From Actinoplanes palleronii (lineage in GTDB: Bacteria; Actinomycetota; Actinomycetes; Mycobacteriales; Micromonosporaceae), in the NCBI RefSeq assembly GCF_016862315.1, contig NZ_BOMS01000026.1, positions 124,001 through 188,000 on the forward strand: a stretch of 64,000 nucleotides of DNA, read 5' to 3'. The notes under the pieces are model-generated. The model made no database searches and was not told the origin of the DNA. It was given only the letters and a program-made list of their open reading frames with translations. The position numbers were made by a program, and so were the translations under genes. This document shows positions 25,360-47,122 of this stretch, one piece after another. Positions within the stretch are counted from its first letter, which is position 1. Each line of letters opens with the position of its first letter.

Positions 25360-25411
25360 TGTCGGTGCCCACTGGCACAATCCGCCTCACGTTTCGGCGA
25401 GAGGGTGGGTC

Positions 25412-26287
25412 ATGGGCTGGGTGTCGGCAGGTGCCGGGTATGAAGTGAGCGTCGACCAGGGCAAGGTGGTCGCGCGCACGGCACAGGGCAAACGGCTGAA
25501 AAGCCTGCCCAAGGCACTCAAGGACCACGAGGCGGTGCTCGGTCTCCGGCAGCTCGTCGAGTGGCTGACCCGGCACGAGACGACGTGCCGGACCGAGGTC
25601 GAGCGGTGGATGATCCGCTCGTTGCCGGTGCCGGTCGCGGTCATCGCCCAGGTCTGGGCCGACGAGTCGTGGCGGGCCGTGCTGCGCGACCTGGTGGTCG
25701 TGCCGGTCAGCGCCGACGGCGCGTGGGATGTCGCCGGCGCCGGGCTGCTGCGCGACGCCGAGGAGGCCAAGGGCCTCGGCGTCGTCGACCTCGACGGCGA
25801 GTCCACCCGGATCACCGCGGAGCGGGTCGCGATCCCGCACCCGGTCCGGCTCCCCGACCTCGACGACCTCCGCGAGTTCGCCTCCGACCTCGGCGTCGAG
25901 CAGGGCACCCTGCAGCTGTTCCGCGAGGTCTGGCATCGGCCGGCCGACCCGGCCGAGCAGCGCCGCGAGCTGGCCCGCTACTCCGGCGCGAAGTTCAAGG
26001 AGCTGCGCCACGTGCAGTCCCGGGCCTCCGCCGCGGGATATCGCGTGCAGGGCGGCACCACGGTCTGCCGGATCTGGGAGGACGGCCGGACCGTTGTCGC
26101 CTCGGTGTGGATCGGCGAGGGCGACCCGGGGTATGAGACCGAGACCTCCGACCTGTCCTTCGCCGACGCGGCCGGGCAGCGCCTGGAGCCCGCCGACGTG
26201 CCGCCGGTGGCCTGGTCCGAGGGCCTGCGGATGGCCGCCACCCTGCACGCCGGCCGGGTCGTCGACGAGGAGCAGTCCGAGCGATGA
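25412..26287 (+). CDS. DUF4132-domain protein, first gene of the MoxR/VWA operon
   Basis: 291 residues from ATG 25412, which has a good Shine-Dalgarno (GAGAGGGTGG). It is essentially one DUF4132 module: an opening strand GYEVSVDQGKVVA, the signature GKRLKSLPKALKDHE, a helix with TEVERWMIRSLP, then AIPHPVRLPDLDDLREFASD and GTLQLFREVWHRP. In E. coli YehI (MolR) this module forms the C-terminus of a much larger WGR-containing protein. Here it stands alone and the large part may be supplied by the next genes. Function is unknown in all relatives. Its last 4 bases overlap the next start (ATGA), so coupling is tight. Confidence 0.8.
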   Translation: MGWVSAGAGYEVSVDQGKVVARTAQGKRLKSLPKALKDHEAVLGLRQLVEWLTRHETTCRTEVERWMIRSLPVPVAVIAQVWADESWRAVLRDLVVVPVSADGAWDVAGAGLLRDAEEAKGLGVVDLDGESTRITAERVAIPHPVRLPDLDDLREFASDLGVEQGTLQLFREVWHRPADPAEQRRELARYSGAKFKELRHVQSRASAAGYRVQGGTTVCRIWEDGRTVVASVWIGEGDPGYETETSDLSFADAAGQRLEPADVPPVAWSEGLRMAATLHAGRVVDEEQSER

Positions 26288-29200
26288 GCACGACACTGCT
26301 CGAGGCCGGCGCGATCCTGCCCGGCCGGTCCGCTGACGCCGCTCTCGACACGATGACCGCCCGCGCCTATCGGCACCCGGCGCTGGACGGCCGCACCGTG
26401 GTCCGGCTGACCGGCGCGACCGTCGGCCCGGCCGAGGACCTGAGCATGGAGTTCCTCGGCTTCCAGGCGGCCGGGGTCACCGAGGTCGGGCACGGCAGGC
26501 GGCACGCGCTGGGCTTCCCGGCCTGGGCGCTGGTGCACGACCCGGTCAACGGGCGGCACGCGCTCGCCATGGTCAAGGACATGGAGAAGCTGGCCCGGAC
26601 CGCTCGCAACAAACCCGGCAACGCCCGCGACGGCTATCTCGCCCTGGCCCAGCGGCTCGGCGACGCCGCACCGCAGTTCCTGCCGACGTTCTGGGAGCAG
26701 GCCGGGCGCGCGTTCCTGGCCGCCGACAACCAGCGGATGGCCGGGACCTGCTTCACCGACGCCCGCCGCGCCGAGCAGGTGCACGGGCTGACCGTCGACG
26801 AGGACCGGCTCCGCGACGTGCACCTGGAGTTCGCGTTCGGCGGGGCGCTGACCGCGGCCATGCTGACGGCGTATTCGCGCGAGGTGGTCACCCGGCGGAC
26901 CCCGGCCGAGGCGTACGAGCTGGTCCGGTCCCTGGCACTGCAGCGCGTCGCGGGCGGGCTGGCGCCGCACGCCTCGATGGCGGCCGACCTGGCCCGGCTG
27001 GCCAAGGCCGCCGGGCTGGACCCCGAGGCCGAGGCCGACACCCTCGTGGCACTGACGCTCACCTACCCGGCGATGGCCCGGGCGCACCCGGCGGTGTGGA
27101 AGGCGTACCGGAAGAACCTGGTCCGGCTCGGCAAGCGCGACGCCACCGTCCGCGCCCGGCTGCTGGAGATCGTCCCGGACCCGCCGGGGTGGGACACCGA
27201 CATCCGTGACCAGTGGCTGGAGCTGCTCGACGCCACCGGCGCGACCGCCGACCTGACCTCCCCCACCGTCTCCGGCGTCTCGGCCGCGCGCTGGCTGGCC
27301 CGGTTCCTGGCGATCCACCTGCATCACCGGACCGGGCGCCGCCACGCCGGGCTGCTCGACCTGGCCGGGCGGATGACCCGGCGGCTGATCGCCGAGGGCG
27401 GGGTGACCGTCGCCACCGACCCGTGGCAGGCCGACGTGGACCTGGTCGACGTGTTGCGGGCCGGTGGCGTGCCGGTCCGGGTCGGCCCGGCCGACGCGCA
27501 CGGGTTCAACATCCGGGCCTGGGCGGACGACGCCGGCGCGGGCCGCCGCGACCTGGCCGCTGTCGCCGCCGACCCGGAGCTCCGGCCGCTGCTCCGCCGG
27601 GGCGTCCGCCGGTTGCTCTTCTCGTTCCGCGGCGACGCCGGCCTCGCCGAGCCGCCGCTGCCGGCTCCGATGCTGACCGAGCGGTTCAGCCCGGCCGGCG
27701 TCCGGGAGGTGCTGGTCGAGCTGATCGGCGACCGCGCCGGGCGGGCCGGCGCCGGCGGCGTGGCCGGGCTCGAGGCCGACCTGATCACGCTCGGCCCGCT
27801 CTGGTCGGCGGCCGGTGTCGCGCTCGCCCCTGATGCGTTCGGCCGGCTGCCGGCCGTCGACGTGGCGGCGGTGCTCGGCCGCACGCTGCGCGCCGGGTCG
27901 CTCGCGGAGCTGACCTGGCCGGCGTACGAGCAGGCCGCGGCCCGGCTGGAGAGCCTCCAGCAGGGGGTGTCCTGGCCCGACCTGGTGCTGCACGACCAGC
28001 GGGCGGCGCAGGTGATCAGCCCGGACGGCCGGGTCACCGAGCACGTGTTCCGGATCCCGCCGGCCGGGCACCGGCACGCGCCCGGCCACTGGTCGCGCAC
28101 CTCCTGCCTGGCCGCTGACGGCGAGCTGCTGGTGTGCTGGAGCACCGACGACGGCCAGGCCGGGTACTGGTCGTCGCACCCCGACGAGCTGATCGAGGGC
28201 GACTGGCAGCTCCAGTACGGCCTGCCGCTGTCGCTGCCGGGCGGCGGGCTGACCACCGGACAGCAACCGGTGCACGCCGGGGACGCCCGGATCGCGATGA
28301 CCTCCGGCTACGCGGTGGCCTCGGACGGCACCGCGTACTGGCGGCGGGAGGAGGGCCGGAGCGGGCCGGGGCAGGACGGCCGGATGTGGCGGGAGTTCGA
28401 CCCGCTCACCGGCCAGGCCGGGCGGGTCAGCCGGCCGGCGTTCTTCGCCGCGGCCGGCGACGGCCTGATGCCCTACCAGTGTTCGCTGCGGCCGCTGCCG
28501 GCCGCGTTCGCCGGTTCACCGCTGGGCGGGCACGACGGGCTGGCCGGCTGGCGGCTGACCCGGACACCCGACGGTGTCCCGACCGGCACCGGCATCGACG
28601 GGCGCCAGGTGACCCTGCCCCGGCACCGCTTCGGCGATTGGCCGATCGGCGCGGTGTCCCTGCCCGGCACGGCCGCGCCCCTGCCGATCACTTCCGGACA
28701 CCACGGTGTCCGGCTCTGGACCGCCGACGGCGAGCACGTGCTGGCCACCGAGTCCCTGCCCAGCGCCACCCTGCCGCCGCTGGACTGGTGGCACGCGCTG
28801 CGGACCCGGGACGAGGCCGGCTCCGCCGCGCTGCGGGTCGTCGACGACGCCACCGCGGCCGCCCTGCTCGCCGTCGCCGACGCGGTGACCGACCCGGCCG
28901 AGCTGCACGCGGCGGCGACCGCGAACCTCGCGGCCCACCTGCCCGCGATCACCGACGCCACGCTGCGCGACCGGATCGCCGGGGTGGTCACCCTCGCGGT
29001 CCGGCTGCGCCGCCGGCTCGCCGAGGTCACCGCGCTGCTCGGCCCGCAGCCGGAGCGGGCGTCGCGGGTGCCCCGGGTCGCCGACGACGCGCTGCGCGCC
29101 GCCTGGGCGGGCCTGTGTGACACCGGGAGCGACTACCGGTCGACGGCCTCCGACCACCAGTTCCTGGAGCAGGTGGCCGCGGCCGGCGCCCTGCTCGCCG

Positions 29201-30957
29201 GTGCGCCCGACCCCGCCGAGCCGCTGCCGACCGCCCCGGCCGACTGGGTGCCGCTTCTGGCCGGCCTCGGCGCCCTGGCGCTCCGGGCGGCCTCCCCGGC
29301 CACCGGCGACGACGACCGGGCCGCGCTGAGCGCCCTGCTCGGCACGATCGCCGGTACACCGCTGGACGGCAGCGGCCCGCCGATCCGCCTGCTGGAGGTG
29401 ACCCAGGAGGCGCTGGCCGACGGCGCCGTGGACGTGTACCGCGACGGCGCGCGGACCTTCGTCCTCTTCGCGCCGAACGGCTTCCACCGCCTGCAGGTGG
29501 TTCACCGCTGGCAGCACCGGGCGGTCCAGGCGGCGCCGGACGGGGTGTTCGCGCTGCCGTCCGGGCCGGCCCTGTTCGACCGCGCGTCGGCCCGGCCCAG
29601 CGGCCGGCTCGCCGGTGACCGCCTGCGCACGTTCCTGACCCTGCTCGCCGAGCGCGGGCCGGCGCCGTGGCGGCCGGAAGCGGCCGACGCCCTGGCCGAG
29701 GCGACCGGGATGGGCCGGGCCGAAGCGGTGCTCCTGCTCGCCGGGCTGCCCGACATCGCCACGTGGCGGGCGACCTACCTGACCACGCAGCAGCGTGCCG
29801 CGATCGGCGTCGCCCAGCCGCCCGCCCGGATCGCCCGGACCACGCTGCAGAAGCTGAGCATGACCGAGCGGGTGGCGCTGCTCGACGCGGCGATGCCCGC
29901 CGACCCGGTGGACCTCTGGGAACACGGGCCGGACGTGGCGTCGATCGCGGCGGCGTGGATCGCGCGGCACGGCCGCCGGGTGGCCGTGCCGGAGCAACTC
30001 GTCGGCGAGGTGGCCCGGCTGGTCAACGCGTCGCGGGCGTCCACCGTGCTGCAGGCGATCGCCGGGCCCGGCCCCGACGACTGGCTGAACACCGACGGCC
30101 GCTGCACCCCGCGCGGCCAGCACTGGATCGTCACAGAGGCCGAGCGGGGTGTGCCGTTCACCGAGGAGCACCTGCACCTGACGGCCATCGCCCTGCCCTG
30201 GCTGGCGTATTCGCTGAGCTGGGACGATCCGCTGCGGGGCACGCTGCCCGAGGCGCTGCGCCTGATCCGGGAACGACTGCGCAACCCGCACCTGCTGGTC
30301 GGGTCCCAGATGCACCGGGCGAGCACCCGGCCCGACGCCGGACCGGCCGTCGTCGACGGCGTCACCTACAACACCCACCTGGTCCTGCACCTCGTCCCGG
30401 CGCACCTGACCGGCCCGGACGACCCGGCGATCGGGTTCGTCGACGACGCCACCGCGACCGCGCTGCGGATCCTGCTGTCCCCGGAGATCGACGAGGCGCT
30501 GAGCACCCCCGACGGCGCCACCGGCGATCCGCACGACCCTCGGGTCAGCGTGCCCGGCCTGGTCGCACAGGTGCAGGCGCGGCACGGGCTGGACGCCGAC
30601 GCCGCCACGTACTACCTCCAGCTGCTGACGCTGCCGGACCCGACGGACAAGGCCGTACAGAAATGGAACGGCTGGAAACCCGCGGCCCTGCGCCCGGTGC
30701 AGGCGGCCCTGATCGACAGCGGTCTGGTGGTGACCGCGAAGCGGGAACGCGCCGGGCGGCCGGTGTTCCTGCCCGGCGGCTGGCACCCGGACACGTCGCC
30801 GCGGCTCCCGGTGGAGACCTGGAAACTCCCGATGTACACGCAGATGTGGCAGGCCCGGCTGGTGATCCGGTCGCTGCCCGGGCTGTTCGGCACGGCCTGG
30901 GCCCGGGTCACCGACGGTGACCTGCCCCGCTACCACGACCTGGAGGAGACCCGGTGA
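26284..30957 (+). CDS. Giant operon protein, paralogue 1 of 3 (unknown fold)
   Basis: 1557 residues. No family recognised with certainty. The N-terminal 330 residues are nearly the same in all three paralogues (YRHPALDGRTVVRL, GPAEDLSMEFLGF, ALGFPAWALVHDPVNGRHAL, FWEQAGRAF, RAEQVHGL, VHLEFAFGGALTAAML). They read as a helical repeat array. The middle (about 400-1000) varies and contains Trp-rich beta-like segments. The C-terminal 400 residues are again conserved (FLTLLAERGPAPWRPEAADAL, YLTTQQRAAIG-like, LLDAAMPADPVDLWE, DKAVQKWNGWK, GRPVFLPGGW). No signal peptide, transmembrane helix or nucleotide-binding motif is visible. It is coupled to both neighbours by 4-bp overlaps, which implies stoichiometric synthesis with the AAA+/VWA machine. 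Confidence 0.75.
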   Translation: MSTTLLEAGAILPGRSADAALDTMTARAYRHPALDGRTVVRLTGATVGPAEDLSMEFLGFQAAGVTEVGHGRRHALGFPAWALVHDPVNGRHALAMVKDMEKLARTARNKPGNARDGYLALAQRLGDAAPQFLPTFWEQAGRAFLAADNQRMAGTCFTDARRAEQVHGLTVDEDRLRDVHLEFAFGGALTAAMLTAYSREVVTRRTPAEAYELVRSLALQRVAGGLAPHASMAADLARLAKAAGLDPEAEADTLVALTLTYPAMARAHPAVWKAYRKNLVRLGKRDATVRARLLEIVPDPPGWDTDIRDQWLELLDATGATADLTSPTVSGVSAARWLARFLAIHLHHRTGRRHAGLLDLAGRMTRRLIAEGGVTVATDPWQADVDLVDVLRAGGVPVRVGPADAHGFNIRAWADDAGAGRRDLAAVAADPELRPLLRRGVRRLLFSFRGDAGLAEPPLPAPMLTERFSPAGVREVLVELIGDRAGRAGAGGVAGLEADLITLGPLWSAAGVALAPDAFGRLPAVDVAAVLGRTLRAGSLAELTWPAYEQAAARLESLQQGVSWPDLVLHDQRAAQVISPDGRVTEHVFRIPPAGHRHAPGHWSRTSCLAADGELLVCWSTDDGQAGYWSSHPDELIEGDWQLQYGLPLSLPGGGLTTGQQPVHAGDARIAMTSGYAVASDGTAYWRREEGRSGPGQDGRMWREFDPLTGQAGRVSRPAFFAAAGDGLMPYQCSLRPLPAAFAGSPLGGHDGLAGWRLTRTPDGVPTGTGIDGRQVTLPRHRFGDWPIGAVSLPGTAAPLPITSGHHGVRLWTADGEHVLATESLPSATLPPLDWWHALRTRDEAGSAALRVVDDATAAALLAVADAVTDPAELHAAATANLAAHLPAITDATLRDRIAGVVTLAVRLRRRLAEVTALLGPQPERASRVPRVADDALRAAWAGLCDTGSDYRSTASDHQFLEQVAAAGALLAGAPDPAEPLPTAPADWVPLLAGLGALALRAASPATGDDDRAALSALLGTIAGTPLDGSGPPIRLLEVTQEALADGAVDVYRDGARTFVLFAPNGFHRLQVVHRWQHRAVQAAPDGVFALPSGPALFDRASARPSGRLAGDRLRTFLTLLAERGPAPWRPEAADALAEATGMGRAEAVLLLAGLPDIATWRATYLTTQQRAAIGVAQPPARIARTTLQKLSMTERVALLDAAMPADPVDLWEHGPDVASIAAAWIARHGRRVAVPEQLVGEVARLVNASRASTVLQAIAGPGPDDWLNTDGRCTPRGQHWIVTEAERGVPFTEEHLHLTAIALPWLAYSLSWDDPLRGTLPEALRLIRERLRNPHLLVGSQMHRASTRPDAGPAVVDGVTYNTHLVLHLVPAHLTGPDDPAIGFVDDATATALRILLSPEIDEALSTPDGATGDPHDPRVSVPGLVAQVQARHGLDADAATYYLQLLTLPDPTDKAVQKWNGWKPAALRPVQAALIDSGLVVTAKRERAGRPVFLPGGWHPDTSPRLPVETWKLPMYTQMWQARLVIRSLPGLFGTAWARVTDGDLPRYHDLEETR

Positions 30958-33900
30958 GCGAGGCACTGCTGGCGGCCGGAGCGATCCTGGCCGGACCGGC
31001 CCCGGAGCCCGGGCCGGACACGATGACCGCGCGGACCTATCGGCACCCGGCGCTCGACGGCCGCACGGTGGTCCGGCTGGTCGGCGCGACCGTCGGCCCG
31101 GCCGAGGACCTGAGCATGGAGTTCCTCGGCTTCGCGGCGGCCGGTGTCGCCGAGGTGGGCCACGGCCGGCGGCAGGCGCTGGGCTTCCCGGCGTGGGCGC
31201 TGGTGCACGACCCGGCCAACGGGCGGCACGCGCTCGCCCTGGTCAAGGACATGGAACGGCTGGCCCGGACGGCTCGCGGCAAGCCCGGCAACGCCCACGA
31301 CGGCTACGCGGCCCTGGCCCAGCGGCTCGGCGGCGCGGCACCGCAGTTCCTGCCGACGTTCTGGGAGCAGGCCGGTCGGGCGTTCCTCGACGCCGGCAAC
31401 CCGCGGATGGCCGGGACCTGCTTCACCGACGCGCGCCGCGCCGAGCAGGTGCACGGGCTGGTCGTGGACGAGGAGCGGGTGCGCGACGTGCACCTGGAGT
31501 TCGCGTTCGGCGGAGCGCTGACCGCGGCCATGCTCACCGCCTACTCGCGCGAGGTGGTCGGGCGGCATCCGGCGGCGGAGGCGTACGAGCTGGTCAAGAC
31601 GCTGAGCCTGCGGCGGATCGCGGGCGGGCTGGCGCCGCAGGCCGGCCTGGCGACCGACCTGAACCGGCTGGCGAAGGCCGCCGGGCTGGACGCCGAGGCG
31701 GAGGCCGACGCGGTGGCCGCGCTGCTGCCGACCTACCCGGCGGCGGCCCGGGCGCACCCGTCGGTGTGGAAGGCGTACCGGAAGAGCCTGGTCCGGCTCG
31801 GCAAGCGGGACGACGCGGTCCGCGCCCGGCTGCTGGCGATCGTGCCGGACCCGCCGGGGCACCGCACCGAGTTCACCGACGACTGGGTGGAGTTGCTCGA
31901 CGCCACCGGGGCGAGCGCCGACCTGGCCTCCGGAGCGGGCGGCCCGGCCGGTCGCTGGCTGGAACGGTTCCTGCACGGCCGGCGCCGGGGCCGGCGCAGC
32001 GAACGGCTGCTGGCACTGGTCGAGCGGCTCGCGCCGCGGCTGATCGCCGAGGGCGGCGTGCAGATCGCGCCCGGCCCGTGGAGCACCGACCTCGATGTGC
32101 TCGACCTCTGCCTGGCCCTCGGCGTGCCGGCCACGGTCGGCAACCAGCACACCGCCTCCCGCTTCGACCTGCTCTCCTGGGCCCGGGACACCGGACCGGG
32201 CCGGCGGGACCTGACCGCGATCGCCGCCGACCCGGCCCTGCGCCCGATGCTGGGCGGGAGCGCCCGGCGGCTGTTCGCCCGGCGCGGCGGGGAGAACTCG
32301 CTGACCGCGCCACCGCTGTCCGACGCGGCACTGCAGCAGATGTTCGACGCGGCCGGCGTGCGCGACGTGCTGGCCGACCTGCTCGCCGAGCTGGCCGGGC
32401 GGGCCGGCGCGGGCACCGTCGCCGGGCTCGACAACACCCTGACCGAGCTGGGTGCGCTGTGGTCGGCGACCGGCATGGCGTTCGCCCCGGAGGCGTTCGG
32501 CGGCCTGCTCGCGGTCGACCTGCCGGCGGTGCTGGCCCGGTCGCTGCGGGCCGGATTGATCACCGAGCTGAGCTGGCCGGCGTACGAGCGGGCCACGGCG
32601 CGGCTGCGGACCGTGCGGGCCGGGACGTCGTGGCCCGAGCTGGTGCTGCACGACGAGCAGACCGCGCTGGTCCTCGCGCCGGACGGGACGATCACCGAGC
32701 ACGTGTTCCGGCTCCCGGCCGGCGCCCCCGTGCACCACGCCGGCGTCAACTGCGCGCTGGTGGACGGCGAGCTGGTGGTGAGCTGGTATTCCAGCGAGGG
32801 CCACCACGCGCACTACTGGTCGTCACGGCCGGACGAGGTGCGGCCGGGGGCCTGGCAGATCGCGTCGCCGGGCTGGACGACACTGGGCGAGCCGCTGCCG
32901 ATCCCGGGCGGGGGCCTGACCGCCGGGTCGCGGCCGCTGCACGCCGGGGACGCGCGGGTGCCCGGGGACGCCTATCCGGTGGCCACCGACGGGCAGGCGT
33001 TCTGGCGGTGCGAGTGGCACCAGGCCGCCGAGCGGACCTGGGCGTGGCGGTGGCGGGAGTTCGACCCGCACACCGGCGAGGGTGGCCGGCTCAGCGTGCC
33101 GGCGTTCTTCACCGCCGCCGAGACCGGCAGCGGAGCCGCGGAGGACGGCTGGCTGGTTGCGCACGCGTGCCGGTTGCGGCCGGTCCCGGCGGCGTTCGCG
33201 GGCTCCCCGCTCGGCGTCCGGGACGGGATGGCCGGCTGGCGGGTGACCGCCACCGGCGCGGGCGTGCTGACCGGCACCGGCATCGACGGCCGCGAGGTCG
33301 TCATGCCGCGCCCCCGCCAGGAGCACCACGACCGCGGGGACCACGGCGAGACGCTTGTCGCCGCGGTGCTGCTGCCCGGCGCGACGGCGCCGCTGCCGGT
33401 CACCCGGCTCCGCGGCTATCCGGTCGGTGACCTGCGGATCTGGACCGCCGACGGCGAGCACCCGCTGACCGTCCAGCCGGACGTCACCCCGGCGCTGCCG
33501 CCGCTGGAGTGGTGGCACGCGATGCGGGCCCGCGACGAGGCCGGGTCGGCCGCGCTGCGCCGCCTCGACCCGGCGACCGCGGCCGCGCTGCTCGCCGTGG
33601 ACGCCACGGTGACCGGCACGAACGCGCTCGCCGCGGCGGCCACCGCGACCGTGCTGGCCCACCTGCCCGAGGTCACCGACACCACGCTGCGGCAGCGGAT
33701 CGCCGAGGTGGTGGCCCGCACGGTGCTGCTGGGCCGGCGGATCGCCACCGTTCCGCAGCACCTGGGCGAGCAGCCGGTGACCACCCGGCGACCGCCGGAG
33801 CTCACCGACCGCGCGCTGCGGCAGGCCTGGGAGGGGCTGTGCGGTTCGGACACCACGTACTACTCCGGGTCGACCGCCGAGCAGAGCCAGAACGCGGAGC

Positions 33901-38600: not shown

Positions 38601-40351
38601 TCCTGGCCCAGGTCGGCGCGGTCGCGGCCACGCTCGGCGGCGACGAGCCGGTGCCGCTGCGCGCGGTCGAGCCGGTCTGGTTGCCGCTGCTGGCCGGGCC
38701 GGGTGCGGTGGCCCTGCGGGCGGCGTCCCCGGTGACCGGCGACGACGGCCGGCGGGCGCTCGCCGCGTTCCTGGCCACGGTGGCCGGCACCCCGCTCGAC
38801 GGCGGCGCGCCGCTGCGTGTGCTGTACCTGTCCCATCCGGACAAGGCACCGCCCCACCCGAACTCGCGGCACACCGTGCTGCTGCCGGGCGAGCAGCAGT
38901 ACTACGGCAAGGACCAGACGGTCACCCACGCCGGGGTGCAGCTCACCCCGTTCGATCCGCCCGCCGGCATGACCCTCACGGAGGAGCTGCGGGCCGGCGG
39001 CCGGCTCGCCGGCGAGCGGCTGCACACGTTCGGCGCGCTGCTCGCCGAGCACGGGCCGGCGCCGTGGCGGCCGGAGGCGGCCGAGGCCCTCGCCGCGGCG
39101 ACCGGGATGACCCGGGCCGAGGCGATCCTGCTGCTGGCCGGGCTGCCCGGGATCGCCTCGTGGGAGGCGAACTTCCTCACCGCCGGGCAGCGCACGGTGC
39201 TCGGTCTGACCTCCGCACACGCGAAGGTGGGGCAGGCCGCGCTGCGCGAGCTGACCCCGCCGCAGCGGGTCGCGCTGCTCGACGCGGCGATGCCCGCCGA
39301 CCCGGCCGCGCTCTGGACCCACGGGCCGGACGTGCCCGCGGTCGCCGAGGTGTGGATCCGGATCCGCGGCCGGCGGACGCCGGTGCCCGAGGATCTGGTC
39401 GCCGAGCTGGCCCGGATCACCGACCGGGAGCGGGCCGCGGCGGTGCTGCAGGCGATCGCCGGGCCCGGCCCGGGTGACTGGCTGAGCACCGACGGCCGGA
39501 CCGAGCGCGGCGGGTGGTCGCTGCAGACCCGGGCCGCCACCGGGGTGCCGTTCGACGAGGGTTACCTGCACGCCGCGGCGGCCGCGCTGCCCTGGCTGGC
39601 CTACGGACTGACCTGGGACGATCCGCTGCGGGCCGGGCTGCCCGAGGCGTTGCGACTGATCCGCGAACGGCTGCGCCACCCGCACCTGGCGGTCGGGACC
39701 GGCGAGCACGAGGCGACCGCCCGCCCGGCGGCCGGGCCCGCGCTGGTCGACGGCTGCACCTACGGCGGGACGGTGCGCCACCACGTCGTACCGGCGCTGC
39801 TGTCCGGGCCGGACGATCCGGTGCTCGGCCTGATCGACGACGACACCGCGAGCAGCCTGCGGGTGGTGCTCGGCGGGTGGCTGGACCGGGTGGTCGCCGC
39901 CCCGGCGGGCGACGGCGGGGATCCGCACGACCCCCGGGTCGCGGCGCCGGAGCTGGTCGACGCGGCCGGTGCGCGGCTCGGGGTGGACAGGGCGGCGGCC
40001 GCGTATTACCTCCAGGTGCTCGCGTTGCCGGATCCGACGGACAAGGCCGTACAGAAATGGAACGGCTGGAAAGTCGCCACGCTGCGCAAGGCGCAGACGG
40101 TCCTGACCGACAACGGTCTGCTGGTGGCGGCGAAGCGGGAGCGGGCCGCCCGGCCGGTGTTCCTGCCCGGCGGCTGGACACCGGCCCGGGTGCCGCGGCT
40201 GCCGGTCGAGACCTGGAAACTGCCGCTCTACCTGCACCTGAGCGGACGGCAGTTCGTCACGCTGCCGCTGCCGGAGCTGTTCGCCGCCGCCTGGGCCAGG
40301 ATCACCGCCGGTGACGTGCCCCGCTACCACGACCTGCAGGAGAAGCTGTGA
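35684..40351 (+). CDS. Giant operon protein, paralogue 3 of 3 (unknown fold)
   Basis: 1555 residues, GTG start overlapping the stop of paralogue 2 (GTGA). It has the same architecture: YRHPVLPGRTVVRLVGATLG, FWEQAGRAFLDAGNPRMAG, EFAFGGALTAAMLTAYARG, PAPWRPEAAEALAAATGMTR, LTPPQRVALLDAAMPADPAA, DKAVQKWNGWKVATLRKAQT. The segment around residues 1030-1090 (SHPDKAPPHPNSRH and following) has no counterpart in the other two and is a candidate for copy-specific recognition. No catalytic motif was seen. It is coupled to the MoxR gene by GTGA. Confidence 0.75.
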   Translation: MSEALLAAGAILTGPAGEAGLDTVTARSYRHPVLPGRTVVRLVGATLGPAEDLTMEFLGFTAGDPVPVGHARAQALGFPAWALVHDPANGRHALALVKDIEKLARAARSKPGLAVDGYHALADRLGAAAPQFLPTFWEQAGRAFLDAGNPRMAGTCFTEARRAEQVHGLVIDEDRVRDVHLEFAFGGALTAAMLTAYARGVTDRRSAAEAYHLVRSLAVRRVAGGLAPHASMAADLARLAKAAGLDAEAEADAVAGQLLVFPATVRAHPSVWKAYRKSLVRLGKRDAAVRDRLRQLVPEPPGYDTDMTDQWLELLDAAGATGELIPPESPDGTASRWLERFLAGREAGRITGRSARLIALVERMLPRLAAEGGLTIASRPWSAELDLLDLCLAGGVPVRCGEQAGDHLPLESWVSDTGPGRRDLAAIAADPVWRPLLRRSVRIAVRRFRSGDSLTGPALPAETLTVAFGVPGVRELLVEELTEQTARAGQGTVASLDFDLTSLAPLWSPAGMALAPDGFRRLLAVDVPEVVRRTLRAGLPVELSWPAYEAAAKQKLRVSFGDAWPDLVVHDHLSAHVIAPGDRVTEHVFRLPGATYQDVSCRLVDGDLLVAGWNWDGRDAYWSSHPADVFDDDLRVHPVAWGVAALQLPLPGGGVTTGTRPVHPGDRVGPGTAYPLATDGQALWLCEPSPEHGWRWREFDPRTGQYGRISMPTFFTGAPDGHRLVEQVCQLRPAPAEFAGSPLGRRDGLVGWRAEITADGDQAGESVDGRRVTLPQRALRRFDRDSGSSRLSAAVLLPGATVPLPITRTDGHSRGRLQIWTADGEHLLAEQPDGTSTLPPLAWWHGLRARDEAGSAALRELDEATAAALLTVDGAVTGTAQVKAAVAANLAAHLPAVTDEVLRDRIVEVVARAVRLRRRITEIPQHLDAVPAVAGPAPAVADDVLEEAWRGLCGFSHQTHHGYGTGREGRHDILAQVGAVAATLGGDEPVPLRAVEPVWLPLLAGPGAVALRAASPVTGDDGRRALAAFLATVAGTPLDGGAPLRVLYLSHPDKAPPHPNSRHTVLLPGEQQYYGKDQTVTHAGVQLTPFDPPAGMTLTEELRAGGRLAGERLHTFGALLAEHGPAPWRPEAAEALAAATGMTRAEAILLLAGLPGIASWEANFLTAGQRTVLGLTSAHAKVGQAALRELTPPQRVALLDAAMPADPAALWTHGPDVPAVAEVWIRIRGRRTPVPEDLVAELARITDRERAAAVLQAIAGPGPGDWLSTDGRTERGGWSLQTRAATGVPFDEGYLHAAAAALPWLAYGLTWDDPLRAGLPEALRLIRERLRHPHLAVGTGEHEATARPAAGPALVDGCTYGGTVRHHVVPALLSGPDDPVLGLIDDDTASSLRVVLGGWLDRVVAAPAGDGGDPHDPRVAAPELVDAAGARLGVDRAAAAYYLQVLALPDPTDKAVQKWNGWKVATLRKAQTVLTDNGLLVAAKRERAARPVFLPGGWTPARVPRLPVETWKLPLYLHLSGRQFVTLPLPELFAAAWARITAGDVPRYHDLQEKL

Positions 40352-41517
40352 CCACGACGCGCCCGACCGCACCGGCCGCCGCCCCCGAGGCCGATCCGGG
40401 CTCCGCCCGGCAGATCGACCCGCCCGAGCATCGGTTCGCCGACGAGCTGACCTTCCTCGCCGCCGCCGACACCGGGGCCCGGCCGCCCGGCTGGCGGCTC
40501 ACACCCCGGGCGGTGGTCACCTTCATCGCCGGCTCCGGCGGCGCGCTCCTCGACGGCCCGGGCGGCAAACGGGTGATCGAGCCGAAGTTCGTCGGTGAGC
40601 GCGCGCTCGTCGAACGCTGCGTGGTCACCCTGGCCGGCGAACGCGGGCTGCTGCTGGTCGGCGAGCCGGGCACGGCCAAGTCGATGCTCTCCGAGCTGCT
40701 CGCCGCGGCGATCTGCGGGACCAGCGCCCTGGCCGTGCAGGGCACCGCCGGCACCACCGAGGACCAGCTCCGGTACGGCTGGAACTACGCGTTGCTGCTG
40801 GCACAGGGCCCGTCGCCGGAATCCCTGGTGGCGTCGCCGATCCTGACCGCGATGACCACCGGCGCGGTCGCCCGGGTCGAGGAGATCACCCGCTGCCTGC
40901 CCGAGGTGCAGGACGCCCTCGTGTCGATCATGTCGGAGCGCCGGATCAGCGTGCCCGAGCTGGCCGGGCAGGACGGGGCGGTCGGGTATGCCGTACCCGG
41001 GTTCTGCCTGATCGCGACGGCCAACCTGCGCGACCGCGGGGTGTCCGAGATGTCGGCCGCGCTGAAACGGCGGTTCAACTTCGAGGTGGTGCCGCCGATC
41101 GCCGACCTGGACGCCGAGGTCGCGCTGGTCACCCGGCAGGCCCGGGCGTCGGTGGAGCGCGGCGGGGCGGCCTTCGAGGTGGACGAGGCGGTGCTGGAGA
41201 CGCTGGTGACCGCGTTCCGGGACCTGCGGAACGGGATCAGCGCGGAAGGCTGGGAGGTGGAACGGCCGTCGTCGGTGATGAGCACCGCCGAGGCGGTGGC
41301 GGTGGCGGCGTCGATCGGGCTGTCCGCGGCGTACCTGCCGGGGCCGGATCCGCTGTCGCTGCTGCCCGGGCACCTGCTCGGGGTGGTCCGCAAGGACGAC
41401 CCGGCGGACGCGGAGCGGTTGCTGGCGTACTGGGACGGTGCGCTGCGGCGGCGCGCCGAGGCCGGTGGCCGGATGTGGCGGCAGCTGTGGGAGCACCGGG
41501 ACGTGCTCCGTGACTGA
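40348..41517 (+). CDS. MoxR-type AAA+ ATPase (YehL-like)
   Basis: 389 residues, GTG start. Walker A is LLLVGEPGTAKSMLSELLAA (near residue 97). The Walker B position reads GAVARVEEITRCLPEVQDAL, with Glu-Glu in place of the usual Asp-Glu, as I recall for YehL-like MoxR proteins. SIMSERRISVPEL, the sensor-1 Asn in LIATANLRDRGVSEM and the arginine region SAALKRRFNFEVV follow. MoxR ATPases act with a VWA-domain partner as chaperone-like remodelers or metal-cofactor inserters; the partner is encoded next. The downstream gene begins 8 bp before this stop, so translation is coupled. Confidence 0.92.
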   Translation: MTTTRPTAPAAAPEADPGSARQIDPPEHRFADELTFLAAADTGARPPGWRLTPRAVVTFIAGSGGALLDGPGGKRVIEPKFVGERALVERCVVTLAGERGLLLVGEPGTAKSMLSELLAAAICGTSALAVQGTAGTTEDQLRYGWNYALLLAQGPSPESLVASPILTAMTTGAVARVEEITRCLPEVQDALVSIMSERRISVPELAGQDGAVGYAVPGFCLIATANLRDRGVSEMSAALKRRFNFEVVPPIADLDAEVALVTRQARASVERGGAAFEVDEAVLETLVTAFRDLRNGISAEGWEVERPSSVMSTAEAVAVAASIGLSAAYLPGPDPLSLLPGHLLGVVRKDDPADAERLLAYWDGALRRRAEAGGRMWRQLWEHRDVLRD

Positions 41518-44500
41518 CCCGCGCGCCGCCGTCGACCGGCTCGCCGGGGACGCCCGGGTGCAGCTGATCGGGGTGCGGCACCACTCGCCGGTGCTGGCCG
41601 CGGCGATCCCCGCGCTGCTCGACGCGTTCCGGCCGGCGACGGTGCTGGTCGAGCTGCCCGCCGAGATGCAGCCGTGGGTCCACTGGCTGTCCGATCCGGA
41701 CACCGTCGCGCCGGTCGCCCTCGCGGCCGCCGGTGAGGACCGGCCGCTGGCGTTCTACCCGTTCGCCGACTTCAGCCCGGAGCTGGCCGCGGTCCGCTGG
41801 GCGCGGCGCCACGAGGTGCCGGTGATCTGCGCGGATCTCCCGCTGACCGATCCGGCCTGGGAGTCCGAGCGATCCGCTTCGATGCCTGTCGCCGACGGGC
41901 CGGGGCTTCGCGAGACCGTGCACGCCACGATGTCCGGACGCGCCGGGGACGACCTCTGGGACCGATGGATCGAGGCGGAGGCGCCGGGCAGTCCGCCGGA
42001 AGCGGTCCGGCGGGCCGCTCTCGCGGCCGGGTGGGCACTGCGGCAAGACACTTCACGGTACGGCGTGGAGCCGCTCGACCTGCGCCGCGAAGCCTGGATG
42101 CGCCGCTGCCTCGCCGATGTGGCGGGGCGGGTCTCCGCCGTGGTCGGAGCGTTCCACGCGCCGGCGCTGCTCGACGGCACGTCGATGGGGTCCCTCGCCG
42201 CGCCGGTCTCGGCGGGCTCCTCCCCCGTGCCGGACCCGGCCGGTTCTTTCCTCGCGCCGAGCCCGGGTGGGCGGGATCAGCCGGTGATCTCGCTGGTTCC
42301 GTACACGTTCGACCTGCTGGACGCCCGGTCCGGTTATCCGGCCGGGATCCGGGACCCGCGCTGGCAGCAGGCGGTCCTCGAGGGTGGCGCCGAGCCGGAC
42401 CGGGTGCGGGCCGCGGCCGACCGGTTCGCCGTCGAGGTGACCCGGGCGCTGCGGGCACAGGGCCAGCCGGCCGGGCCGGGCGAGGCGGCCGAGGTGACCC
42501 GGCTGGCCGCGGACCTCGCCGGGCTGCGCCGGTTGCCCGCCCCCGGCCGTGGCGAACTCGTCGAGGCCCTGCAGACGGTGCTCGCGCAGGGCGCACCGGC
42601 CGGTACCGGGCGGGGTGTCGCGCGGGCCATGGACGAGGTGCTGATCGGACGGCGGCGCGGCCGGCTGCCCGGCGGCGTCCCGGTCACCGGGCTGCGGCCG
42701 GCGGTCGAGGGGGAGATCGCCGCGCGGAAGCTGCCCGGCCCGGGCCGACCCGGCGAGCGGATCCGGCTCGACCCGCTGCGCTCCCCCACCGACCGCGCCC
42801 GCGAACTGATCATCCGTCGGCTGGCCGCGTGCGGCGCGCCCTACGGTGACCCGGGCACGGCCGGGCCGGTCTCCGGGGGCGAGACGCTGACCAGCACCTG
42901 GCGGGTGGAGTGGACCCCGGCCGTGGACGCGGCGCTGGGCCTGGCCGGCCTGCACGGGGTCACCCTGGCCCAGGCCGCGGAGGGGATGCTCGCCGCCCGC
43001 CGCCGCCGGGAACAGCAGGCCGGCGGCCCGACCGCGGAGCAGGCCCTGGCGGGTCTGGAGCAGGCCGCGGTCTGCGGGCTGCCGGGACTGGCCGGCGAGC
43101 GGCTCGGCGACGTCCGGCAGGCGGTCTGCCACGGCGGCGGCATCCAGCAGATCATCAGCGCCCTGCACTTGATCAACCGCATCGAGCGCGGCCACATCCC
43201 CGGCCTCCCCGCCACGCCGGCGCAGCCCGCTGGCCCCTCATCCCCGGCCTCCGATCCGACCGCGGCCCCTGACGGGCTCGGGGCGGCCCGGGACGAGCTG
43301 CACGCGGCGGCGGTCGCGGCGGTCGGCGGGCTTGCCGGGTCGACGCGGCTCGAGGATGCGCGGGCGTTGCCGGACCTGGTCCAGGCCGCTGACGAGGCCG
43401 GGCGGCGGCTCCGGCTGGGCCGGGCGATCCATGGCCTGGCCCGGAACGGCACGCCGCTGATGTCCGGGGCCGCGATCGCGGTCGGTGTGCTGCTCGGGCA
43501 CGATTCGCCGGAGGCGTTCGGCGTCCGGCTGGCGTCCTGGGCCGACCTGCCGGACGCCGGGGCGACCGATCGGCTGCGCGGGGCGCTCAGTGTCGCCGGC
43601 GCGCTGTTGCAGTCCGGGGGCGAGTTCCTGACGCCGTTGATGGACACCGTGGACCGGATGCCGGACGACGACTTCGTCAAGCGTCTCCCGGCGCTGCGCG
43701 GCGGGTTCGACGCGCTGAGCCCGGCCGATCGGGACCGCCTGCTGCGCACGGTCGGCGAACGCCACGGCACGGTCGGCGAACACCTGCCCACCGACGCGGC
43801 CACGGTGGCCGGCTGGATCGCCGCCGACCGGGCCGGTCTGACCGCCCTGCGAGCGCTGGGCCTCACCCCAACTGCGGCCCCGGCCTCAGCCACCGCCCCG
43901 GCCTCAGCCACCGCCGCGCCTGAGCCGGGCGAGCCGCGCCCGGATGTCACGACGGACGGGATTTCGCCCGGGCAGCGCTGGCGGCTGCTGCTCGGCCGGG
44001 AGCACGAGAAGCTCTCCCCGAGACAGCGCCGACTGGCCACGGCGCTCGACGAGCTCTACGGCACCGGGCGCGGCGAGGGCGCCTACACCGTGGACGGCAG
44101 CGGCGCGGGGCGGGAGGCGGCCTACCCCGAGATCCGGGACTGGCTCACCGATCTGGAGGCGCTGTTCGGCACGTCCGTACGAGATGAGGTCCTGGCCCGG
44201 GCCGCGGAACGCGGACGCCTCGACGCGGTCCTGGCCGCGGACCCTGACCGGGTGCGGCCCTCGATCGACCTGCTGCACGCGGTGCTGTCGATGGCCGGCG
44301 GCCTGCCCGAGGCACGCCTGGCCCGGCTGCGGCCGCTGGTCGCCCGGCTCACCGCCGAGCTCACCGCGCAACTGGCCCGGCGGATCCGCCCGGCGCTGAC
44401 CGGCCTGGGCACGCCCCGGCCGACCCGCCGCCCGACCGGACGCCTCGACCTGGCCGCGACCGTACGCCAGAATTTGCACACCGTGCGCCGCGACGCGACC

Positions 44501-45055
44501 GGGCGGCCGCAGCTGCTCCCGGAGCGGCCGGTGTTCCGCAGCCCGGGCCGGCGCAGCGTCGACTGGCAGGTCATCCTGCTCGTCGACGTCTCCGGCTCGA
44601 TGGAGGCGTCGACGATCTGGGCGGCGCTGACCGCTTCCGTGCTGGCCGGGGTGCCCGCCCTGCGGACCCACTTCGTGACGTTCTCCACCGAGGTCATCGA
44701 CCTCACCGACCGGGTCACCGATCCGCTCTCGCTGCTGCTGGAGATCCGGGTCGGCGGTGGCACGCACATCGCCGCCGGGCTGCGCTACGCCCGGCAGATC
44801 ACGCTGGTGCCGAGCCGCACGCTGGTCGTCACGATCAGCGACTTCGAGGAGGGGTACTCGGTCGGTGACCTGGTCGGCGCGGCCCGGGCCCTGGTCGACG
44901 ACGGGGTGACGCTGCTCGGCTGCGCCAGTCTCGACGACCGGGGCCGCCCGCGGTACAGCACCGGCGTCGCGTCCCAACTGGTCGGCGCGGGCATGCCGGT
45001 CGCCGCACTGAGCCCGGCCGAGCTGGCCGGATGGATCGGAGACAAGGTTCGATGA
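41510..45055 (+). CDS. DUF5682-VWA fusion protein (YehM + YehP equivalent)
   Basis: 1181 residues from GTG 41510. Residues 1 to about 790 are DUF5682, opening with LIGVRHHSPVLAAAIPALLDA, then TVLVELPAEMQPWVHWLSD and VISLVPYTFDLLDARSGYP. A Pro/Ala linker with an 18-bp double repeat (43883-43918) follows, and the last 190 residues are a von Willebrand A domain. Its MIDAS is complete: LLVDVSGSMEAS, VGGGTHIAAGL for the Thr, and ISDFEEG for the second Asp. In E. coli the two parts are separate adjacent genes (yehM, yehP), so this fusion supports their direct interaction. It is the expected partner of the MoxR ATPase. It overlaps both neighbours. Confidence 0.88.
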   Translation: MTDPRAAVDRLAGDARVQLIGVRHHSPVLAAAIPALLDAFRPATVLVELPAEMQPWVHWLSDPDTVAPVALAAAGEDRPLAFYPFADFSPELAAVRWARRHEVPVICADLPLTDPAWESERSASMPVADGPGLRETVHATMSGRAGDDLWDRWIEAEAPGSPPEAVRRAALAAGWALRQDTSRYGVEPLDLRREAWMRRCLADVAGRVSAVVGAFHAPALLDGTSMGSLAAPVSAGSSPVPDPAGSFLAPSPGGRDQPVISLVPYTFDLLDARSGYPAGIRDPRWQQAVLEGGAEPDRVRAAADRFAVEVTRALRAQGQPAGPGEAAEVTRLAADLAGLRRLPAPGRGELVEALQTVLAQGAPAGTGRGVARAMDEVLIGRRRGRLPGGVPVTGLRPAVEGEIAARKLPGPGRPGERIRLDPLRSPTDRARELIIRRLAACGAPYGDPGTAGPVSGGETLTSTWRVEWTPAVDAALGLAGLHGVTLAQAAEGMLAARRRREQQAGGPTAEQALAGLEQAAVCGLPGLAGERLGDVRQAVCHGGGIQQIISALHLINRIERGHIPGLPATPAQPAGPSSPASDPTAAPDGLGAARDELHAAAVAAVGGLAGSTRLEDARALPDLVQAADEAGRRLRLGRAIHGLARNGTPLMSGAAIAVGVLLGHDSPEAFGVRLASWADLPDAGATDRLRGALSVAGALLQSGGEFLTPLMDTVDRMPDDDFVKRLPALRGGFDALSPADRDRLLRTVGERHGTVGEHLPTDAATVAGWIAADRAGLTALRALGLTPTAAPASATAPASATAAPEPGEPRPDVTTDGISPGQRWRLLLGREHEKLSPRQRRLATALDELYGTGRGEGAYTVDGSGAGREAAYPEIRDWLTDLEALFGTSVRDEVLARAAERGRLDAVLAADPDRVRPSIDLLHAVLSMAGGLPEARLARLRPLVARLTAELTAQLARRIRPALTGLGTPRPTRRPTGRLDLAATVRQNLHTVRRDATGRPQLLPERPVFRSPGRRSVDWQVILLVDVSGSMEASTIWAALTASVLAGVPALRTHFVTFSTEVIDLTDRVTDPLSLLLEIRVGGGTHIAAGLRYARQITLVPSRTLVVTISDFEEGYSVGDLVGAARALVDDGVTLLGCASLDDRGRPRYSTGVASQLVGAGMPVAALSPAELAGWIGDKVR

Positions 45056-47076
45056 GTCTGCCACCGGTCGATCCCGCGGTCACCGCCGAGGCGGTCGCGG
45101 CCCTCCCCGCCCGCCTGCGCAAACGGCTCGACGAGGCGGTCACCCAGGCCCGGGGCTGGCCGGTGGAGACGGCGGGCGATCGGGTCACGGTCCGTCCCGA
45201 CGATCAGGTGTACGTCGTGCTGACCGTCCCCGTCACCGACCCGGCGGACGCCGTCTGCAGTTGCCTGCTGGCACCCCGCTGCCTGCACCGGACCGCGGTC
45301 CTGAGCGCCGCTCCGATCCGCGCCGGCGGTGACGAGTCCCCCGCGCCCACCGACGATCCCGCGGCCGACAGCGGCCCCGCGCGGGCCGGCACGGCACCCC
45401 CGGACCAGCCACAGCCCGGCGCGTCACCGACCGGCGACCCCGGAGTCAGCGCGACACAAGCCGACGCGCCCGGAGTCAGCGCGACGCAAGCCGACGTTCC
45501 CGGGGTCAGCGCGGTGCAAGCCGACGCGGCGCACGGGCTCTGGGTGGTAGCGGCCACGATCCTGGCCAACGGCATCGCCGGCGCCGGAGCGGTCGCGCAG
45601 GCCGATCTGCTGCGCGCCGTGCACCAGGCGCGCGCGACCGGCCTGCACGGACCCGCGGCGGCCGCGATCCGGGTCGTCGAGCACCTGCGGGCCGGACGCC
45701 GGGAGGAACCCGCGTTCCGGCTCGCCGACCTCGCCGACGACCTGCGGGAACTCCTCGCCGCCTGCCACCGGCTGGCGGCCGGCGACGGCACCGTGGCCGG
45801 GGTGGCCCGCCGCGACTACGAGCCGGTCGGCGACCTGCGCCTCTATGGACTGTTCTGCGAACCGATCCGCGCCGCCACCGGGCACGCCGGCGCGGTGACC
45901 TACCTGGCCGATCCCACCGGGCGCCTCTGGGTGGTCTCCGACGTCAAGCCGTCCGACCGCCCGGCCACCGGGTCGGCGACCCGCGCCTCGGTCGACCTGG
46001 GCGAGGTCCGGCTCAGTCATCACGCCCTGTCCCGGGCCGGCCTGCGCGCGATCAACGCGCACGCGTCGACCGTCGGCCGGCTCAGCCACGGCCGCGCCCG
46101 GCAGGCGGTGGCCGCGCCCGGCGCGGGCTGGTTCGACCCGCCGCTCGACGCCCTCTGGCAGACCGGGCTCGCCGCGCAGGTGGACCGCTGGCTGGCGGGC
46201 ACCGCGCTGCCCGCGCACGCCCGGCCCGCCGCTCACGACCTGGCTTTCCTCGACGGCACCATCCTCGGCACCGACCGCCGCGGCCTCCTGCTCACCCTCG
46301 ACCATCCCGATGCCGCCCAACCCGATCCCGCCGCCCGATCGGACCAGACCGACAAGGGCCAGACCAGCACTCGGGAGCCGCTCACCATCGTCGTTTCCGC
46401 GCCGCACGAGGACCCCTCGCTGCCCTACGTCACCAACCTCCGGGTCCTCGGCATCCACGCCATCGGCCGGCGCATCCGGCTGGTCGGCCGCTTCACCGGC
46501 CCACGCCAGGTCGACGGCCTGGCCTTCGCCGCCCGATGGCTCCGCACCGGAGAACCCGGCCACGGCAGCCCCGCGCACGGCAGCGACTCCGCGCACGGGG
46601 GCAGCTCCGGCCACGGCGGCGACACCGGGCATGTCGATCTCGGCGCCATCCCGCTCACCCGCGCCGACGTCGCCGAGACCGTCCGCGCCCGGGGCAACTT
46701 CCTCTCACCCGGCGCCACCTTCCACACCGTCGCCGGCCGGCCCGTCCTCGACCCCACCCCGAGCCCGGCACCCGCCGCTCCCCCGCTCCACCTGCTGCGG
46801 CACCAGGTGGAACGGGTCGCCTCGGCCGGCCGCTCGGCCCTGCTCTCCGGGGTGGACGCCGACGCCCGCCGGCTCGCCGACGCCCATCTCGGCACCGCGA
46901 GCACGGTGCTCGCCGAGCTCGGCGCGGCCGGGGTCCGGCGGACCCGGGACGTCTTCGGCCGCCTCGACCCGCACGACGCGGACCGGCTGGCGCGGGCCTG
47001 GCTCACCGCGGCGGTTTACGAGCAGGCCGCGACCCGGGCGACCACCCGGCAGGCCTGGACCGCCGACTTGTGTTGA
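45052..47076 (+). CDS. SWIM zinc-finger protein (YehQ-like), last gene of the operon
   Basis: 674 residues, ATG within the ATGA overlap. The SWIM motif CxCx(n)CxH is seen at DAVCSCLLAPRCLHRTAVL (near residue 62-78). The rest is not assignable beyond similarity in layout to YehQ. A linker at about residues 130-160 consists of three copies of GVSATQAD-type decapeptides. A His/Gly/Ser-rich loop lies near residues 502-528 (HGSPAHGSDSAHGG and following). SWIM domains bind nucleic acid or protein through zinc. A terminal position and 4-bp coupling to the VWA gene make it part of the same machine. The stop is immediately followed by the promoter of the next unit. Confidence 0.85.
   Translation: MSLPPVDPAVTAEAVAALPARLRKRLDEAVTQARGWPVETAGDRVTVRPDDQVYVVLTVPVTDPADAVCSCLLAPRCLHRTAVLSAAPIRAGGDESPAPTDDPAADSGPARAGTAPPDQPQPGASPTGDPGVSATQADAPGVSATQADVPGVSAVQADAAHGLWVVAATILANGIAGAGAVAQADLLRAVHQARATGLHGPAAAAIRVVEHLRAGRREEPAFRLADLADDLRELLAACHRLAAGDGTVAGVARRDYEPVGDLRLYGLFCEPIRAATGHAGAVTYLADPTGRLWVVSDVKPSDRPATGSATRASVDLGEVRLSHHALSRAGLRAINAHASTVGRLSHGRARQAVAAPGAGWFDPPLDALWQTGLAAQVDRWLAGTALPAHARPAAHDLAFLDGTILGTDRRGLLLTLDHPDAAQPDPAARSDQTDKGQTSTREPLTIVVSAPHEDPSLPYVTNLRVLGIHAIGRRIRLVGRFTGPRQVDGLAFAARWLRTGEPGHGSPAHGSDSAHGGSSGHGGDTGHVDLGAIPLTRADVAETVRARGNFLSPGATFHTVAGRPVLDPTPSPAPAAPPLHLLRHQVERVASAGRSALLSGVDADARRLADAHLGTASTVLAELGAAGVRRTRDVFGRLDPHDADRLARAWLTAAVYEQAATRATTRQAWTADLC
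45439..45528 (+). repeat. In-frame 30-bp minisatellite, three copies, in the SWIM gene
   Basis: Three consecutive 30-mers (45439-45468, 45469-45498, 45499-45528), starting CCCGGAGTCAGCGCGA and differing at a few bases, encode PGVSATQADA-type units in the linker after the SWIM finger. The copy number is likely to vary between strains. Confidence 0.85.
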
Positions 47077-47102
47077 CACAAATCCGGATGACCCCCTAAC
47101 TT
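47073..47102 (+). promoter_or_regulatory. Promoter of the six-TM protein/GntR operon (leaderless)
   Basis: A perfect -35 TTGACA (47073-47078) and -10 TAACTT (47097-47102) are 18 bp apart. The GTG start of the membrane protein follows 7 nt later (47110). The -35 begins inside an inverted repeat TTGTGT-TG-ACACAA (47068-47081), which itself overlaps the last codons of the SWIM gene. Confidence 0.7.
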
Positions 47103-47122
47103 GTATCACGTGCTTGATACAA
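47101..47122. promoter_or_regulatory. Operator-like palindrome TTGTATCA-N6-TGATACAA
   Basis: Perfect 8-bp arms with a 6-bp spacer cover the end of the -10, the transcription start and the GTG start codon. It is the sort of site bound by YtrA-type GntR repressors. The regulator is encoded as the second gene of this operon, so negative autoregulation is inferred. Confidence 0.7.

Follow-up and report, generated by a model that had tools for sequence, protein, structure and literature searches.

The DNA analysed here, termed the window, comprises 64,000 nucleotides (nt) of contig NZ_BOMS01000026.1 of Actinoplanes palleronii, whose genome measures 11.17 Mb and whose named relatives in this work belong to Actinoplanes, Winogradskya, Hamadaea and Dactylosporangium. 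A seven-gene operon occupies positions 25412-47076 of the forward strand and its genes overlap at each junction (by 4, 4, 4, 4, 8 and 4 nt), as claimed in the original prediction, which was made from the sequence alone. Gene 1 (25412-26287) begins with the ATG at 25412, in an open frame that itself starts at 25322, and encodes a small DUF4132 protein of 291 residues of the type of the YehI C-terminal domain (PF13569, E 1.1e-30, nt 25487-26038). Genes 2 to 4 encode three giant proteins, G1 (26284-30957, 1557 residues), G2 (30954-35687, 1577 residues) and G3 (35684-40351, 1555 residues), which a tree assigns to clades named gamma, beta and alpha, respectively; G2 and G3 are 63% and 59% identical to G1, in agreement with the three paralogues of about 1560 residues previously described. 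Gene 5 (40348-41517) encodes a MoxR AAA+ ATPase of the YehL type (AAA_5, 4.7e-36; P-loop GEPGTAKS) and gene 6 (41510-45055) a DUF5682 protein (as in YehM) fused to a VWA domain (as in YehP) with a DxSxS motif (Pfam DUF5682, 1.8e-166; VWA_CoxE, 1.7e-55), the VWA domain ending at residue 1199 of 1205. Gene 7 (45052-47076) encodes a SWIM protein of the YehQ type carrying the sequence CSCLLAPRCLH, a CxCx5CxH motif present in 40 of 42 aligned proteins, itself included. The predicted parts list was thus recovered by Pfam for the DUF4132, MoxR and DUF5682-VWA proteins; the SWIM protein was recognised by its motif and by alignment to a YehQ profile, as the Pfam scan gave no match and the Pfam SWIM model was not reached.

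Comparison of upstream regions identified a conserved block approximately 30 nt 5' of the first ATG. In the window, the element TGTCGGTG-N8-CACAAT (25360-25381, forward strand) lies 30 nt 5' of the ATG of gene 1 and scores 10/11 against the published consensus of the LexA/RecA-independent damage promoter, RecA-NDp, which is tTGTCRgtg-8nt-TannnT (PMC5656591) and serves PafBC once its WYL domains have bound single-stranded DNA (PMC11804915). The pattern TGTCRGTG-N8-YANNNT has its sole exact match in the window at 25360-25381 and, with up to one mismatch, five matches compared with 1.17 in shuffles. None of the other 32 genes listed for the window scored above 8/11 for the element, and the actinobacterial SOS box was absent between 25201 and 25420. 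Scoring by the published TANNNT version of the pattern placed the upstream regions of 23 of 49 giant-containing operons at 10/11 or better and of 36 at 9/11 or better, the remainder being 12 at 8/11 and one (L057) at 6/11; Markov shuffles reached the 10/11 level in 0.06% of cases and the 9/11 level in 1.9%. Conservation of the 22-nt element across 14 loci at differing chromosomal sites was 0.88, compared with 0.45 for the upstream flank. The operon of Streptomyces atratus, which was fetched after the pattern had been fixed, contains a single site of at least 10/11 within 25 kb, and this site scores 11/11 and is located 84 nt before the DUF4132 gene. These sequence comparisons support the assignment of the operon to a PafBC/RecA-NDp-type DNA-damage promoter, and such a promoter would support the earlier guess of a stress-response function.

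The window genome contains 46 exact sites of the element and three of the reversed pattern. Inspection covered 39 of the 46 sites, and ten genes downstream of sites were hand-picked for a scan with family models. Four of these ten appeared repair- or replication-restart-like, namely xseA, with a match above the cut-off, and three fragments (priA, a DinG/YoaA helicase and an IGHMBP2-like helicase, mostly below NCBIfam cut-offs); the other scanned genes include a WYL regulator and two without a family. Similar leucine-rich-looking proteins are encoded behind exact RecA-NDp-type sites at loci L219 and L221 (contigs C91 and C126), that of L221 matching the STM4015 family. Two adjacent WYL genes, located approximately 6 kb beyond a gene of the Pup-ligase family, encode a PafB/PafC-like pair, one product having an HTH_PafC domain (2e-41) and the other WYL and WCX domains only. 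The 10/11 promoter element and the presence of this pair are shared with the PafBC (RecA-NDp) regulon of mycobacteria, from which the window operon differs in that its genes are not named in the portions of the PafBC literature examined. A conserved RecA-NDp promoter has been described for recA and SCO6735 of S. coelicolor (PMC5087735).

The window MoxR protein is 46% identical to YehL of Escherichia coli K-12 over 361 residues (E 2e-87), the DUF5682 part is 26% identical to YehM, the VWA part is 36% identical to YehP, and the SWIM protein aligned to a three-sequence YehQ profile with an hhalign probability of 92.8% (E 4e-7, 191 columns). Four components plus the DUF4132 domain therefore match the E. 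coli locus yehF-yehI-yehL-yehM-yehP-yehQ, as anticipated in the original prediction. We take this locus to be molR and, to our knowledge, its genes in E. coli K-12 are without settled function. The two loci share MoxR, DUF5682, VWA, SWIM and DUF4132 components, and a putative DNA-damage operator, a LexA-type box, stands at the head of the E. coli locus. They differ in that YehI is a single chain of 1210 residues with DUF4132 near its end, whereas in the window DUF4132 stands alone and giants are added; moreover, YehM and YehP are separate in E. coli but fused in the window operon, and the regulators differ. The proposal that the giants replace the large N-terminal part of YehI by homology was not sustained, since hmmsearch gave an E value of 0.38 for YehI and 0.033 for the best of six DUF4132 proteins and hhalign a probability of 1.1%, leaving only position and helical character in common. 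This comparison took in YehI, four more long DUF4132 proteins and a fragment; as none of them gave a signal, the reading of the giants as a displaced YehI N-terminus was rejected.

The MoxR-DUF5682-VWA core of the window operon is shared with ordinary SWIM/MoxR/DUF5682/VWA loci (for example L107 and L115, and L235 in Deinococcus), which differ in that none of the 15 actinobacterial loci contains a giant and that L235 contains DUF5691. Profile comparison detected no kinship beyond the zinc motif between the window SWIM protein and its counterparts in eight ordinary loci of actinobacteria. Three distinct DUF5682 systems are encoded in the window genome (contigs C26, C62 and C99; loci L108 and L107), comprising the window operon, an ordinary MoxR-DUF5682-VWA system and a diverged VWA-MoxR-DUF5682 system. 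Two more DUF4132 proteins are encoded on contigs C96 and C146; the stretches examined around the own-genome DUF4132 proteins L056 and L073, on other contigs, contained neither a MoxR module nor a promoter element of at least 10/11. The DUF5682 N-terminus (window 41549-42150, and relatives) carries RHHSP/RHHGP-, E-, REA.M- and GafH-like motifs that hardly vary and that tentatively suggest a TraB/EreA-type hydrolase. A PDB search with this N-terminus returned nothing relevant, and a TraB protein was obtained from only one of 119 genomes.

Damage-type sites were also found at related loci elsewhere. Six of the 15 ordinary actinobacterial MoxR-DUF5682-VWA loci contain one 11/11 RecA-NDp site each (expected 0.0). 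In L115-L117 the 11/11 site lies 7 nt before the SWIM gene and a 10/11 site precedes MoxR; in L114 the 11/11 site precedes a gene for a WGR-DUF4132 protein and a 10/11 site a divergent DUF4132 gene; and in L122 and L123 the 11/11 sites lie approximately 2.7 kb before the VWA domain. Genomes are shared by L114 and L116 and by L117 and L123. In E. coli K-12, one LexA-type box (13/20, with CTG and CAG), compared with 0.05 expected, is located 7 nt before yehF, the first yeh gene in the stretch examined, and molR has been listed as LexA-regulated (PMC11039860, PMC4576408). The putative operon drA0165-drA0166 (DUF4132) of Deinococcus radiodurans is bound by DdrO (site at -83), its product being induced by mitomycin C (PMC8533742), and the best DdrO-like site of the SWIM-DUF5691-MoxR-DUF5682-VWA operon of D. 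taeanensis (13/15) lies 20 nt before the first gene.

Relatives of the giants were found in 53 of 200 genomes of the family, in 14 of 60 genomes of the genus, and in 29 of 296 genomes of the class, in several further families (L109-L113 among the loci). The three window giants gave no match to Pfam or PADLOC and one NCBIfam match at chance level (E 0.18). Among 59 distinct giant loci (duplicates removed by script, the S. atratus locus not counted), DUF4132 precedes the giant in 56 and MoxR follows in 53, so that giants standing apart from the MoxR/VWA genes are not the rule in other genomes; in 51 loci MoxR is followed by DUF5682, VWA and SWIM within the stretch examined. This arrangement is not due to chance. 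The six loci without MoxR comprise the DUF4132-giant pairs L044, L046 and L074, whose genomes each have a second giant elsewhere (that of genome G071, L045, sitting in a complete locus), and the diverged lone giants L064, L065 and L067. In place of the first 70 residues typical of giants, the lone giants of L064 (2441-2546) and L065 (17538-17643) start with a segment resembling the lead-in to DUF4132 (18 bits each). A complete single-giant operon, with the giant annotated as a DNA-binding protein, is carried by the linear 912-kb S. atratus plasmid NZ_CP109382.1 (L237), where an IS110-family transposase gene is located immediately upstream.

The three-giant arrangement that the original prediction had emphasised is real but rare: one giant is present in 53 of the 59 loci, two in two and three in four. 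It is a local expansion of a gene that is usually single. In a tree of 26 giants, tandem copies fall into three multi-species clades (support 95/99, 88/85 and 100/100), and the clade order is gamma-beta-alpha in the window but alpha-gamma-beta in L037 and L038. As judged from this tree and gene order, the three window giants are old paralogues that have been shuffled yet retained. Some tandem giants have losses with the remaining frame open, affecting the middle, propeller-like region in L006 and L037 and the C-terminal part in L038. With linkage and paralogy borne out and the YehI homology not, the observation behind the original prediction was confirmed and its interpretation partly supported.

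Models of the giants were predicted with AlphaFold2 from 14 aligned sequences (window and L005-L016), yielding a mean predicted local distance difference test score of 80.9 for residues 1-900 and 81.7 for residues 831-1557 of G1. The G1 model displays a helical solenoid (92-555) and a beta-rich, propeller-like region (565-825), residues 1-92 being without a confident model. The 50 Foldseek matches listed, of 791, were mostly propeller and helical-repeat proteins. The C-terminal half had no fold match at 0.001 and gave weak matches to MarR-type winged helices (probability up to 0.66), which suit residues ~1415-1504, one of the two most conserved stretches of the giants. A viral fold search gave nothing at E<0.001, and self-comparison of the propeller-like and solenoid regions gave no clear repeat signal, with one segment pair at 54% probability.

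The upstream neighbour of the operon is a gene at 19854-25310, named from its sequence as a carboxylase gene. Between the two, a hairpin on the forward strand (25319-25359; -33.7 kcal/mol, z -5.9) is probably the terminator of the carboxylase gene and insulates the operon; as no clear T run was seen after the hairpin, we only infer this terminator role. The carboxylase gene adjoins the multi-giant loci of genome G000 (that of the window), L005, L006, G767 and G774; in G167 and G172 it lies 5.8 and 8.1 kb away from them, respectively, whereas in all eight single-giant genomes of the genus the giant and the carboxylase gene are on different contigs or far apart. Of the 60 genomes from the genus, 56 gave a strong match to the carboxylase gene and 14 contain giants. 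In genome G158 (L171), the carboxylase gene is directly followed by a remnant of the operon's far-side neighbour (residues 629-729 of the gene at 48233-50530) and no giant was found in the genome, which indicates that the operon is missing there as a unit; the junction is a probable deletion scar. Beyond the operon, TTGACA-N18-TAACTT starts at approximately 47074, a possible separate promoter for the next gene. An inverted repeat, TTGTATCA-N5-TTGATACAA, at approximately 47102-47125, inside a promoter-like stretch where the next gene starts, is operator-like.

We consider it rather probable that the operon encodes a DNA-damage-induced MoxR-VWA remodelling machine of the YehL type in which the giants serve as adaptors. 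MoxR-VWA pairs have been described to grip a client peptide and to remodel it with ATP (PMC7159879). Taking the gene content, the linkage, the old retained triplication, the promoter element and the PafB/PafC-like pair as read from the sequence, we infer the induction, the formation of a complex and the functions of its giant, DUF4132 and SWIM members as follows. Single-stranded DNA would activate PafBC, which together with the housekeeping RNA polymerase would start transcription at 25360-25381. Like other MoxR-VWA pairs, the MoxR ring would then work with the VWA domain of the gene 6 product as an ATP-driven remodeller. The giants may act as interchangeable client or DNA adaptors, with the solenoid and propeller-like domain available for protein contact and the conserved winged-helix-like stretch near the C-terminus for nucleic-acid contact. 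The DUF4132 and SWIM proteins may help to position the complex at nucleic acid, and the client would be a damaged or stalled nucleoprotein complex.

Several observations weigh against this reading. The -10 hexamer of the window element, CACAAT, is one base off TANNNT, and the -10 pattern was relaxed from T to Y (YANNNT) after the site had been seen. The 49 upstream regions are related to one another; therefore, the conservation of the 22-nt element, the 8/11 ceiling of the other window genes and the S. atratus site weigh more than the counts. Of 30 inspected genomic sites, 15 are within long coding-like frames, four of these being the downstream gene's own frame, so many of the sites probably occur by chance, and genes behind other sites are not for repair (bioF, a PMT-type protein and an STM4015 protein). 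For S. venezuelae, an initial search is reported to have suggested a lack of conservation of the PafBC motif known from M. smegmatis (PMC9380542). Nine of the 15 ordinary loci are without an 11/11 site, including both of the window genome (L107 and L108); 306 nt separate yehK from yehL in E. coli; and the DdrO-like site of D. taeanensis is one compared with 0.1 expected. For the giants, the fold matches are weak, with one at E<0.001 (Raptor, 3.6e-4) and template modelling scores (TM-scores) of at most 0.34 among the 50 listed of 791, and the propeller and winged helix in the models are consequently likely but not proven.

Three other explanations were weighed against a damage-induced remodelling machine. 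An unlikely one is that of a MoxR-vWA conflict (anti-phage) system, in which giants would sense invaders, the ATPase would set a threshold and the damage promoter would only prime the system as phage attack exposes single-stranded DNA. MoxR-vWA ternary systems have been proposed as conflict systems, and the window P-loop GEPGTAKS fits their GXXXTAKS form (PMC7159879). The giants vary in copy number and domains; the giant and SWIM protein of L016 (64% and 57%) are less well conserved than its MoxR protein (90%), although L016 has only one giant, which is not strictly orthologous to any one of the copies. Presence is patchy, as the count of 14 of 60 genomes of the genus indicates, and YehL relatives occur in 40 plasmid-collection records (some of chromosome size), one of which has the complete giant operon. 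This explanation retains some weight: a phage alarm would equally be served by damage induction, the divergence and copy change of the giants would fit both readings, and relatives occur on plasmids. However, the bpMoxR model gave 21.5 bits for the window MoxR (18.4 for YehL and 24.5 for an ordinary locus of the window genome) at a cut-off of 27; no PADLOC match and, in the Pfam scan, no effector domain was found; and the window neighbours look metabolic by eye, no family search of them having been made. Compared with the MoxR-vWA-beta-propeller ternary systems as described in PMC7159879, the operon has in common a MoxR protein, a vWA protein, a large helical-repeat/propeller-like protein and the P-loop form, but differs in missing the bpMoxR cut-off, in having no bpX match, in phylum, and in its VWA being the last domain with no propeller after it. 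Relative to the tetratricopeptide repeat and propeller third protein, the giants gave solenoid and propeller-like matches with low TM-scores and no clear sequence repeats. An identity of the giants with bpX proteins was rejected, as a Pfam match was lacking for all three and the N- and C-terminal regions of relatives gave chance-level matches only.

A dedicated maturation chaperone for assembly of a metal or cofactor enzyme, like CoxD-CoxE or RavA-ViaA, with an incidental damage-type promoter, appears improbable. The CoxE-type VWA domain (1.7e-55) and the old name molR, which links the E. coli locus to molybdate (PMC8533742), speak for it, but the promoter evidence from the 49 upstream regions, the ordinary loci and the S. 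atratus site argues otherwise, and the carboxylase is not a fixed partner, given its presence in 56 of 60 genomes against 14 for giants and its separation from giants in all eight single-giant genomes; other co-travelling clients were not searched for. We give similarly little credence to the upstream element being an ordinary actinobacterial housekeeping promoter and not a PafBC site, with some other role for the machine. The apparent lack of conservation of the M. smegmatis motif in S. venezuelae (PMC9380542) and the weaker -26 halves in Dactylosporangium (8/11) would suit such a promoter, whereas the 46 against three genomic sites with repair genes behind some, the scores of at most 8/11 for the other listed window genes and the distinct damage regulators of E. 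coli and of Deinococcus are against it.

The damage-type promoter heading the operon and the proposed shared wiring to DNA-damage regulators are new here. No description of the operon or of its damage control, and no paper joining DUF4132 with MoxR, was found in the open-licence literature, although either description may be in print elsewhere; PafBC and MoxR both appear in PMC6882752, where, in the portion available, they are treated apart. For the question left by PMC9380542, that of PafBC-type control in Streptomyces and relatives, the operon provides a concrete case, and the giants add a protein family not described by any Pfam model. More tentatively, and at rather less than even confidence, YehL-type machines may be a missing, widespread arm of the DNA-damage response, placed independently under LexA (E. 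coli), DdrO (Deinococcus) and PafBC (actinobacteria). In that case, giant receptors of solenoid-propeller build, exchangeable and in one lineage present in triplicate, would have been added to the machine in Actinoplanes and relatives and would select the damaged or stalled nucleoprotein complexes to be dismantled. If three unrelated damage regulators do switch on the same machine, its role would be directly testable in common laboratory strains by damage assays.

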